Assembly (NCBI GenBank): GCA_009777845.1
Contig: WRLD01000016.1
Coordinates: 1-64,000, forward strand
DNA length: 64,000 nt
DNA from: Defluviitaleaceae bacterium
GTDB taxonomy: Bacteria > Bacillota > Clostridia > Lachnospirales > WQUN01
Direction of reading: 5' to 3'
A program made the position numbers and the translations under genes. The first letter of the stretch is position 1, and every line of letters starts with the position of its first letter. The notes beneath the pieces are model-generated. The model had not been told where the DNA came from. It searched no databases and saw only the letters and a list, made by a program, of their open reading frames with translations. Positions 24,489 through 29,014 of this stretch are shown in pieces.

Positions 24489-26822
24489 CTACCCCTCAAA
24501 CAACCCAATCAAAGACTCCGACTGCCCTGCCAGCTCCTCACTTGCCGCGGCGGTTTCCTCGCTCGCGGCAGAGTTGGACTGCGTTATGCTTGCTATCTGC
24601 GATATGCCAGTTACTACCTGCCTAATGGACTCCTCTTGCTCGGCGGAGGCTACTGCGATTTCGTCTACTATGCTTGCCACGCTGTCAAAATCTTCTATTA
24701 TTGATTTAAATGCCTCGGCGGTTTTTGCCGCAAGCTCTGTGCCTTGGTCTACCTTGCTTATGGTGTCGGATATTAGGTCGTTTGTTTCCTTTGCCGATAG
24801 CTGGGAACGCGCCGCCAAATTCCTTACCTCCTCGGCGACTACCGCAAAGCCCTTGCCATGCTCGCCTGCGCGCGCGGCCTCTACTGCGGCGTTTAGTGCA
24901 AGCAAATTGGTCTGGAAGGCTATATCCTCGATTGTTTTAATGATTTTGGCGATATTGCCCGACGAGGTTTTTATGCCGTCCATGGCTAGTACCATTGACT
25001 GCATTTCGTTGTTGCCGCTTAGTGCGTTTTGCTTTGATGCCTTTGCTCGTTCGCTTGCGGTCGAGGCGTTTCCTGCGGTTACGTGGGTTTGCTCGTTTAT
25101 TAGGTCTATGCTTGCGTTCAATTCCTCTATTGCGCTTGCTTGCGTGGACGCGCCCTGTGCGAGGTCGTTACTGCTCTCGGAAATTTGCTTCGCGCCGAGC
25201 GATACTCTTTCGCTTACCGTCTTGACCTCGTTCATGGTCGTGTTTAGCTTCTTTATCATGGATTCTAGCTTTGAGATGTCCTGTACAACCTCAACAAAGC
25301 CTATTTCCTCGCCCTTTTCGTTTTTCAAAGCGGCAATGTCCACCTGGAAGGTCATATCCATATGCGAGAACGAGGTTTGCGACATTCCGCGCTTTAGGCA
25401 AGCTATGCCGCAGTTGTCGGTATTGCATATTTTCGCGCCCCAGTTACTGCAATGCTGACCTGCCACCTCGCCGCGTGTTTTGCCCAGGAAGCCCTCGGTT
25501 GCCTTGTTTATAAACGTCCATTTCATGTCCCTATCGGTAACGGAAAGAGGGAAGCTAATGGAGTCGAGGATTGATTCGTACCAAAACGCTTTTTCCGCCA
25601 CAGCTCTTACTAAGGCGTTCAAATCGTTCAATAGCACAGCCCAATCGCCGCTATATTTGCTAGAATCTGCCTTTGCGTTCAAATCGCCGCCTGCGGCGGT
25701 TACGGCAAGGCTTTCTATGTCCGCGCTTATGCTTTTTATGTTGCTCACCACGCTCGCAAAGCGTTGATTTACAATGACCTTTTTGCCGGGAAGCACTGGC
25801 AGCTCGCTGTCAAAATTGCCGTTACCTATTTCTTCCAAGGAGCTAAGCATGGCGGAAATTTCGCCCACATAGGAATCGGCAAAGCTGTTTATTTTGTCCA
25901 TAAGCTCGCTGTAAGAGCCGCGATAGCCAGCGGTGTCTATTCGGTACTCGACATCGCCGTTTGCGTTAAATTCGTATATCAAGCGCGACAAATCGTCCGT
26001 CATTTTTCTGATTACGTCAATAAGCAGGCAGACATCTTTTGTCAGCTTGCCAAGCTCATTTTCGGAAATGCCCGAGCGGTCGATATTTACGTTCAGCTCG
26101 CCCTTAATCACGCTTTTCATCACGGTATGCAGTCTTTGCAACGGCCGCGCGATTGACAGGTTAATTAAATAGGAAACGCCCACCGACACAAGAAGCATTG
26201 CCAGCGCGAGAAGCAAAATAAGCGCCCTTGACGTATTCGCACCCCTTGTTGTATTTTCCTGTTGCTCGGCGGCAAATCGCAGGGCATCAGTATACATTGT
26301 ATCGAGAATTTCGGTCGCTGTGCCGAGAATTGGGCCGCCGTCTCTAAGGTACAGCATGGCTTCGAGCTGGTTTCCGTCCATCGCCAGGGCAAAGGCAGGA
26401 TTCAAATAGTTGGTCGCGTAGTCGGTTATATAGCCCCTCGCTTCCTCTATTTGCCGTTTATTGTCCGCCAAGGTGCTTGGCTCGCGCCGTTTATCCTTAT
26501 CGTTAATTTCGATATAGGCGTTTATGTACCCGCCCGCGTTCTCAAACGCTTGGTTAAACTCGCCGCCAAACCTTTGCACAAGCTCAGTATTTCCGCTTTC
26601 CAAAATCGCCGTAACGGCAAGCCGCCGCATGTGAATAATTTCGATGTTCAAATTCTTTAATGTCAAAATGCTCTGCATAGGAAAGTCGGAAATGTAGCGA
26701 TTGTTATTGTCCACCCTGTTTATTGACAAAAACGACACAATACCCAAAATTGCAGTAAAGATGATAGCCACCCCAAAGCCAAGCATTAGCTTCCATTTTG
26801 TCGCCAAATTATTGAATTTCAT
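24489..26822 (-). CDS. Methyl-accepting chemotaxis protein with PAS domain
   Basis: A 777-residue chemoreceptor: transmembrane helix at about 12-32, a four-helix-bundle ligand domain (about 33-190) with an insert of loops, second helix at about 195-217, HAMP and HAMP-like helices, a PAS domain at about 415-520 with a cysteine cluster ([20 protein letters not shown]), and the signalling domain with the conserved hairpin tip ([39 protein letters not shown]). The Cys cluster could bind a metal or sense redox state; that is inference. GGAGGG lies 6-7 bases before the ATG. Its promoter holds a ten-base homopolymer between consensus boxes, so expression may switch on and off. No other chemotaxis genes lie near. 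Confidence 0.93.
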
Positions 26823-26873
26823 TTGGGTACCCTCCTTTATCCTTTTTAGCCTTCTACAGGCTTCATATGGTAA

Positions 26874-26902
26874 ATTATACCCCCCCCCCAGAAATTTGTC
26901 AA
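26874..26902 (-). promoter_or_regulatory. Consensus promoter with a C10/G10 tract in the spacer
   Basis: On the minus strand TTGACA (26902-26897), a 17-base spacer AATTTCT plus ten G (26889-26880), then TATAAT (26879-26874). Both boxes are perfect sigma-70/SigA consensus and 17 is the best spacing. Any gain or loss of G by slippage moves the spacing away from 17. Transcription would start about 45 bases before the chemoreceptor ATG. Confidence 0.88.
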
Positions 26903-27720: not shown

Positions 27721-27766
27721 ACATTTTAGCTTCGTGCGTTTGTCGTGTTCACCCATCGGTTGGGTA

Positions 27767-27794
27767 TTGCTTTTTTCTGATTTTTGGGTATAAT
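27767..27794 (+). promoter_or_regulatory. Promoter of antisense RNA, unit 1
   Basis: TTGCTT-N16-TATAAT, with TATAAT at 27789-27794. The same pair occurs in units 2 (28198-28225) and 3 (28630-28657) with identical spacing. It directs transcription into the 3' end of the toxin-like gene on the opposite strand. Confidence 0.8.
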
Positions 27795-27797
27795 AAA

Positions 27798-27829
27798 AGC
27801 AAGCCACTTGCGGAAACAAGTGACTTGCT
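27798..27829 (-). terminator. Terminator of toxin-like mRNA, unit 1
   Basis: Stem GCAAGTCACTTG / CAAGTGGCTTGC followed on the minus strand by TTTTATT. Unit 2 (28229-28260) keeps the stem although three base pairs are changed (CACGAG / CTCGTG), and unit 3 (28661-28692) matches unit 1. Confidence 0.75.
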
Positions 27830-27920
27830 CAGTACACAGCCGTTTCGGCTGGCTCACGGATTTACGTCATTTTAAATTGAACGCAAATAGCCGTTACCTT
27901 GTCCGAGGACGGCTATTTTT
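27801..27920 (+). ncRNA. Candidate antisense antitoxin RNA, unit 1
   Basis: Starts about 7 bases after TATAAT and ends at a hairpin AAATAGCCGT / ACGGCTATTT followed by a T-run (27885-27920). About 120 nt, overlapping the 3' UTR and the last codons of the toxin-like gene, as in RatA/TxpA-type systems. The ends are predicted from promoter and terminator only. Confidence 0.6.
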
Positions 27921-28040
27921 GCGTTCTTTGCTTTGTTCTTCGCTGCAACAGGTACATTTGTAACAACGATAAGCCAGATATAACCCTGCCGGTTGTGTCG
28001 CAAGCTGTATCAACAAGGATAACCATTCATATACGCTCAT
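27894..28040 (-). CDS. Small membrane toxin-like protein, unit 1
   Basis: A 48-residue protein beginning MSVYEWLSLLIQLATQ with one hydrophobic helix (residues 6-24) and a Cys-rich, basic tail (RCYKCTCC...). The start resembles the MSxYEALxLMI start of the small holin-like/type I toxins of Bacillota. AGGGGTGAGG lies 4 bases before the ATG. Differs from units 2 and 3 only in the tail (KERKNSRPRTR). Toxicity is inferred from the family-like start and the antisense layout. Confidence 0.62.
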   Translation of the reverse strand: MSVYEWLSLLIQLATQPAGLYLAYRCYKCTCCSEEQSKERKNSRPRTR

Positions 28041-28197
28041 TAGCCTCACCCCTTTCGGAGTGACCCAGCCGTCCCGACTGCTTGCACATTATAGCACAAA
28101 AATCCTTTTTGCGAGGACTTTTTTTTAATGCTTTCTTAAAATAATATCCCTGCTGTGTTTGTCTTGGACAGAACACAATCACCCAATCGGTTAGGTA

Positions 28198-28225
28198 TTG
28201 CTTTTTTCTGATTTTTGGGTATAAT
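28198..28225 (+). promoter_or_regulatory. Promoter of antisense RNA, unit 2
   Basis: TTGCTT at 28198-28203, 16-base spacer, TATAAT at 28220-28225. Same as unit 1. Confidence 0.78.
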
Positions 28226-28231
28226 AAAAGC

Positions 28232-28352
28232 AAGCCACGAGTGTGACCTCGTGACTTGCTCGTTGAACAGCCGTTTCGACTGGCTCACGTTTTTCACGTT
28301 ATTTAATTTTTAACGCTAGTAGCCGTTACCTTTGTCGAGGAGGACGGCTACT
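28232..28352 (+). ncRNA. Candidate antisense antitoxin RNA, unit 2
   Basis: From the unit 2 promoter to a hairpin AGTAGCCGT / ACGGCTACT at 28318-28352. The T-run after it is weaker than in unit 1 (TGTTGCG), so the true 3' end may lie further on. Confidence 0.5.
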
Positions 28353-28472
28353 GTTGCGTTCGCGTTGTTCTTCGCTGTGACAGGTACATTTGTAACAACG
28401 ATAAGCCAGATATAACCCTGCTGGTTGTGTCGCAAGCTGTATCAACAAGGATAACCATTCATATACGCTCAT
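28326..28472 (-). CDS. Small membrane toxin-like protein, unit 2
   Basis: A 48-residue copy of the unit 1 protein: the first 31 residues are the same, and the tail reads HSEEQRERNSSRPPRQR. The same AGGGGTGAGG ribosome site is present. A TTATACTG -10-like box lies about 55 bases upstream on the minus strand. Its ATG is 432 bases from that of unit 1. Confidence 0.62.
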   Translation of the reverse strand: MSVYEWLSLLIQLATQPAGLYLAYRCYKCTCHSEEQRERNSSRPPRQR

Positions 28473-28629
28473 TAGCCTCACCCCTTTCGGAGTGACCCAG
28501 CCGTCCCGACTGCTTGTACAGTATAACATAAAAAGTCTTTTTGCGAGGACTTTTTTTTAATGCTTTCTTAAGATAATATCCCTGCTGTGTTTGTCGTGGA
28601 TAGAACACAATCACCGCATCGGTTGGGTA

Positions 28630-28657
28630 TTGCTTTTATCTGATTTTTGGGTATAAT
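28630..28657 (+). promoter_or_regulatory. Promoter of antisense RNA, unit 3
   Basis: TTGCTT at 28630-28635, 16-base spacer, TATAAT at 28652-28657. Same as units 1 and 2. Confidence 0.78.
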
Positions 28658-28663
28658 AAAAGC

Positions 28664-28783
28664 AAGCCACTTGCGGAAACAAGTGACTTGCTCGTTGAAC
28701 AGCCGTTTCGACTGGCTCACGTTTTTCACGTTATTTAATTTTAACGCTAGTAGCCGTTACCTTTGTCGAGGAGGACGGCTACT
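28664..28783 (+). ncRNA. Candidate antisense antitoxin RNA, unit 3
   Basis: From the unit 3 promoter to the hairpin AGTAGCCGT / ACGGCTACT at 28749-28783. It overlaps the 3' end of the unit 3 toxin-like gene. Confidence 0.5.
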
Positions 28784-28903
28784 GTTGCGTTCGCGTTGTT
28801 CTTCGCTGTGACAGGTACATTTGTAACAACGATAAGCTAGATATAACCCTGCCGGTTGTGTCGCAAGCTGTATCAACAAGGATAACCACTCGTATACGCT
28901 CAT
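28757..28903 (-). CDS. Small membrane toxin-like protein, unit 3
   Basis: A 48-residue protein with the same sequence as unit 2 at the protein level despite some base changes (GTATACGAG for VYE, CTAGCT for LA). Its ATG is 431 bases from that of unit 2. The synonymous changes suggest that the protein has been kept. A plus-strand hairpin with T-run (AAAAGTC..GGACTTTT, near 28965-28990) marks the outer end of each unit. Confidence 0.62.
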   Translation of the reverse strand: MSVYEWLSLLIQLATQPAGLYLAYRCYKCTCHSEEQRERNSSRPPRQR

Positions 28904-29014
28904 TAGCCTCACCCCTTTCGGAGTGACCCAGCCGTCCCGACTGCTTGCACATTATATAACATAAAAAGTCTTTTTGCGAGGACTTTTTATTTTTTTACAA
29001 GGACGCAAGAATTG

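Follow-up and report, generated by a model that had tools for sequence, protein, structure and literature searches.

A poly-G promoter spacer as a probable phase-variable switch of a chemoreceptor gene in a Defluviitaleaceae bacterium

INTRODUCTION

Does a homopolymeric G tract between the −35 and −10 hexamers of a chemoreceptor promoter make the expression of the gene phase variable? Promoters of the sigma-70 type work optimally with approximately 17 bp between TTGACA and TATAAT, and phase variation by slippage in the promoter spacer has been described mainly in a few pathogens. We addressed this question for a Defluviitaleaceae bacterium with a stretch of 64,000 nt of its contig C16 (here called the window), its whole 2.98-Mb genome, and public genomes of other bacteria. 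The initial annotation of the window had described perfect TTGACA and TATAAT hexamers on the minus strand around a 17-base spacer with ten G, which proved exact and scored 12/12 in a promoter scan, and had placed a chemoreceptor gene behind them, which is borne out by matches to the 4HB_MCP_1, HAMP, PAS, and MCPsignal domains.

RESULTS AND DISCUSSION

A ten-G spacer in the perfect promoter of a chemoreceptor gene

The features of the locus are as follows (window positions, with the basis of each in brackets).

24489..26822, minus strand: chemoreceptor gene, 777 aa, with 4HB_MCP_1, HAMP, PAS, and MCPsignal (open reading frame and domain matches)
26868..26873, minus strand: TTACCA (of the form TTWCCA), adjoining the −10 hexamer on its 3′ side (sequence)
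26874..26879, minus strand: −10 hexamer TATAAT (sequence and promoter scan)
26880..26889, minus strand: G10 homopolymer, the final ten bases of the 17-nt spacer (sequence)
26890..26896, minus strand: the part of the spacer without G, AATTTCT (sequence)
26897..26902, minus strand: −35 hexamer TTGACA (sequence and promoter scan)

The minus strand from 26902 thus reads TTGACA-AATTTCT-GGGGGGGGGG-TATAAT-TTACCA, followed by 45 nt that include AAAGGAGGG, which precedes the ATG of the 777-aa open reading frame, 51 nt downstream of TATAAT. Judging by the distance from the −10 hexamer, transcription is predicted to start at the last base of TTACCA or next to it, at approximately 26868 to 26866, and the predicted fold of the mRNA leader is unremarkable. 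A scan of the region from 24 to 29 kb yielded six promoter-like sites, with the chemoreceptor promoter scoring 12/12 at a spacer of 17 and the other five scoring 9 to 10. It is also the only perfect promoter with a 16- to 18-nt spacer in the 64-kb window; 60 Markov-1 sequences averaged 0.0 such promoters per 64 kb. Its tract, far above the background length of the window, is the sole G-run longer than 7 (the second longest is 7), compared with 0.1 runs of G10 or longer expected per 64 kb in Markov-1 sequences.

The open reading frame at 24489-26822 is, by its domain matches, a canonical chemoreceptor, and the gene appears to be monocistronic. A CheA-type kinase domain and further chemoreceptors are encoded in the same genome. 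We found no close ortholog of the chemoreceptor; its best relatives, at approximately 50 to 55% over part of the protein, are too distant, which makes a tract-length comparison with them impossible. Upstream of the gene is a 2-kb intergenic stretch rich in repeats. Tandem copies of a unit of approximately 432 nt lie upstream at 27754-28991, with strong terminator-like hairpins (GAGCAAGTCAC..GTGGCTTGCTTTTATTATACC).

We consider it quite probable that this gene undergoes transcriptional phase variation of the porA/tp0126 type, with the G10 tract acting as a slippable spacer in the sole strong predicted promoter of the chemoreceptor. Replication slippage would add or remove a G in the spacer; spacing off the optimum would lower chemoreceptor transcription and a return to the optimum would restore it, and a clonal population would come to hold both receptor-rich and receptor-poor cells. 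By analogy, the promoter as assembled, with its spacer of 17, is probably ON or near maximal. That the G10 tract would slip is taken from known cases; ten G is a moderate tract, and the slip rate depends on the mismatch repair of the organism. From the sequence of one genome we infer the instability of the tract in this organism, its effect on transcription, the behavioral consequence, and tract-length differences between cells of the source population.

Three sister promoters and a coding poly-G family in the same genome

A search of the whole genome for the pattern TTGAC-N-G6+-TATAAT returned exactly four sites, including the chemoreceptor promoter.

C16:26874-26902: poly-G promoter, G10, spacer 17, before the chemoreceptor gene
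C17:46074-46099: poly-G promoter, G7, spacer 14, before a gene for a 215-aa protein, then an M48 peptidase cluster
C23:29052-29081: poly-G promoter, G9, spacer 18, before a DUF4230 lipoprotein pair
C39:23852-23883: poly-G promoter, G11, spacer 20, before a pair encoding 66-aa and 129-aa proteins

The genes behind these promoters are unrelated to one another, and a reversed-pattern control gave zero matches in each genome searched, including this one. Common to all four promoters is TATAATTTWCCA, and the 46 further places in the genome that fit TTGAC-N-TATAAT all lack it. No further upstream similarity among the four is evident by eye. The remaining GGGGGTATAAT sites of the genome have no TTGACA in register, and the two on C8 look like coding repeats. 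The relatives of the DUF4230 protein were too distant for comparing tract lengths. Besides the chemoreceptor gene, no fewer than three transcription units of the genome, whose assembled spacers measure 14, 18, and 20, are probably controlled by a slippable spacer; by analogy, the promoters on C17 (spacer 14) and C39 (spacer 20) are predicted to be down as assembled.

The motif TTWCCA adjoins the 3′ end of TATAAT at C16:26868-26873 and at the equivalent positions on C17, C23, and C39. Such a shared motif may be a regulator site or a start-site preference, or may stem from common descent of the promoter.

Five RCC1-repeat paralogs (L077, L082, L086, L219, and L231, on contigs C5, C8, C8, C17, and C31, respectively) carry a run of G9 to G12 shortly after the ATG, their layout being ATG, a short basic leader, AAAAAAAT, the G-run of 9 to 12, a signal-peptide-like segment, and the RCC1 repeats. 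The reading frame is set by the number of G, with four of the five out of frame as assembled, running into a stop after approximately 18 to 20 codons, and one open. Their sequences suggest that they are likely a translational phase-variable family, and it is therefore plausible that slippage in poly-G tracts serves this organism as a general device.

Other G-runs of the genome include those of a dispersed repeat, present in many copies, that starts with a run of G8 to G12 (G8-CATAGCCCCTTTTCTCCGACTGT..GGTGGGAATGTCGCCTC) and occupies many intergenic sites, e.g., L078, L092, L097, L222, L225, and L241. Runs of at least eight G also occur within approximately 150 nt of the ends of contigs C6, C16, C31, C35, C41, C43, and C52. 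G-runs are commoner at contig ends than their overall density suggests, examples being a stretch of 99 G close to the C6 terminus and G21 close to that of C16; long or length-mixed runs may break the assembly, or these runs may be sequencing artifacts.

Poly-G promoters in other genomes

A scan of public genomes, one per species, with the pattern TTGAC-N-G7+-TATAAT retrieved at least 118 stretches from Clostridia, Bacilli, Anaeroplasmataceae, Saccharibacteria, Streptobacillus, spirochetes, and others, G9 being the commonest tract among the matches listed. The richest genomes were a 1.0-Mb Bacilli metagenome-assembled genome from rabbit gut, with 20, and Streptobacillus notomytis, with 19 (reversed control, zero), and cultured strains carrying the arrangement include S. 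notomytis and Blautia luti. Such promoters are found in 8 of the 391 genomes within the class, the genome studied here having the most, and the other genomes of the same family that were searched contained no TTGAC-N-poly-G-TATAAT promoter. Identical 5′ flanks with differing numbers of G occur within genomes, such as TTGACAATGACACTCC with 9, 9, 9, 10, 10, and 11.

The sequence TATAATTTNCCA was considered as a family-wide promoter class and rejected: in the family's other 37 genomes it matched three times, each time without a G-run and in front of an unrelated gene.

Among the matches listed, a hydrophobic N-terminal segment was present in 95 of the 118 downstream genes versus 88 of the 287 remaining genes in those loci, suggesting that the genes with poly-G promoters mostly encode exported or membrane proteins. 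This enrichment would match the usual kind of phase-variable cargo.

The spacers of these promoters are mostly off 17, mainly longer. Among the matches listed, the spacer was 17 in 5 of 112 poly-G promoters with TTGACA versus 19 of 44 ordinary TTGACA-TATAAT pairs of the same loci (Fisher test, 2e-8), and another set, which overlaps the first in part, gave 9 of 86 poly-G promoters with a spacer of 17, versus 24 of the 46 ordinary promoters in the genome of the window; in both sets the sites, drawn from draft assemblies, are phylogenetically non-independent, and the search pattern stops at 20 to 21 nt. Genomes with multiple such promoters had 8, 7, 9, 21, and 30 spacers of 15, 16, 17, 18, and 19 nt, respectively. 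A clean dip at 17, present in the sample from one scan, was absent between 16 and 17 in these multi-promoter genomes and was not retained. Spacers mostly off 17 are as expected if a variable tract was sampled in different states; the optimum of a G-rich spacer may also be other than 17, given that 18 and 19 were the commonest lengths in the scan sample among the matches listed.

The proposal that the chemoreceptor promoter is phase variable, also made in the initial annotation, thus gains support from the three sisters with differing tracts, the RCC1 coding family, and the flank-matched G9 to G11 runs elsewhere, from which we infer the switching of the G10 tract itself.

Alternative explanations

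Speaking against slippage alone, the four sites of this genome have TTWCCA in common besides the G-run, and a common regulator is possible. The species could then have a class of regulated promoters with the G-run as a fixed part, in which TTWCCA and the G-rich spacer are both read by a regulator or a special form of the polymerase, the length differences being incidental. The occurrence of TATAATTTWCCA in all four promoters and in 0 of the 46 other matches, despite the unrelated genes, favors such a class. However, tracts of 7, 9, 10, and 11 and spacers from 14 to 20 are more than fixed recognition should tolerate, and TTWCCA is missing from the poly-G promoters of other genomes; we regard this explanation as unlikely.

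Control at the RNA level, with a start further upstream and the G-repeat lying in the leader as the target of a small RNA, has a precedent in Helicobacter pylori TlpB, likewise a chemoreceptor, which is governed by a length-variable leader G-repeat via RepG (PMC8295292), and the intergenic stretch upstream is 2 kb long. The tract, however, sits within a perfect promoter and upstream of TATAAT, which puts it outside the predicted transcript, the nearest other promoter-like site on the same strand scores 9/12 and is approximately 0.85 kb upstream, and the arrangement recurs at unrelated genes, making a leader target very improbable. The slimmest chance of all we give to coincidence or an assembly artifact, in which the G-run or its length would come from sequencing and the promoter would be ordinary: the odd poly-G runs near the ends of C6 and C16 could be cited for it, but the exact arrangement occurs at four internal sites with a reversed control of zero, and it is found in many independent assemblies, including those of the cultured S. 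notomytis and B. luti.

Significance

Slippage in a promoter spacer is a mechanism already known from tp0126 and porA. What the present case adds is that the promoter is one of a genome-wide set and of a broader group of poly-G promoters in gut bacteria that has apparently not been catalogued; in the open papers searched, poly-G spacer promoters were reported for neither gut Bacillota nor Streptobacillus. We see an even chance that uncultured gut Bacillota, Saccharibacteria, and Streptobacillus have a widespread, apparently uncatalogued promoter phasome that comprises up to approximately 20 genes in a genome, most of them coding for exported or membrane proteins, each behind TTGACA-N-G(~9)-TATAAT with spacers mostly off 17, and that in the species studied here it includes a chemoreceptor, which would make navigation itself bet-hedged. 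With four promoters of this kind in a single Clostridia-like genome and numerous ones in gut Bacilli, Clostridia, and Saccharibacteria, commensals would commonly vary from cell to cell in their exported proteins and, in the present case, in chemotaxis. Metagenome reads that already exist could reveal the variation directly, and the recognizable motif would make cataloguing easy.

Comparison with known systems

In coding poly-G contingency genes, e.g., lgtG of Neisseria meningitidis, a G-run after the start codon sets the frame, as in the RCC1 paralogs, which belong to a different gene family and are companions of the promoter finding. The H. pylori tlpB gene resembles the present case in being a chemoreceptor gene with a G-run, on whose length its level depends; it differs in that the variable repeat is part of the mRNA leader and exerts its effect via the small RNA RepG (PMC8295292), whereas here the G-run is in the promoter spacer. 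As to the precedents named in the initial annotation, opc and the fim genes are loose ones, opc being described as a poly-C overlapping the −35, and porA fits, with its poly-G between the hexamers. The same placement is found in Treponema pallidum tp0126, best transcribed at a spacing of 17 (PMC7864442); that gene belongs to a spirochete and encodes an OmpW-like outer membrane protein, and its length variation and transcription were measured, whereas ours is a case from sequence. In N. meningitidis porA, expression is graded by tract length, being high with 11G, 2-fold lower with 10G, and 13-fold lower with 9G (PMC3639595). There, the product is an outer membrane porin under immune selection, whereas here it is a chemoreceptor, and both hexamers are perfect.
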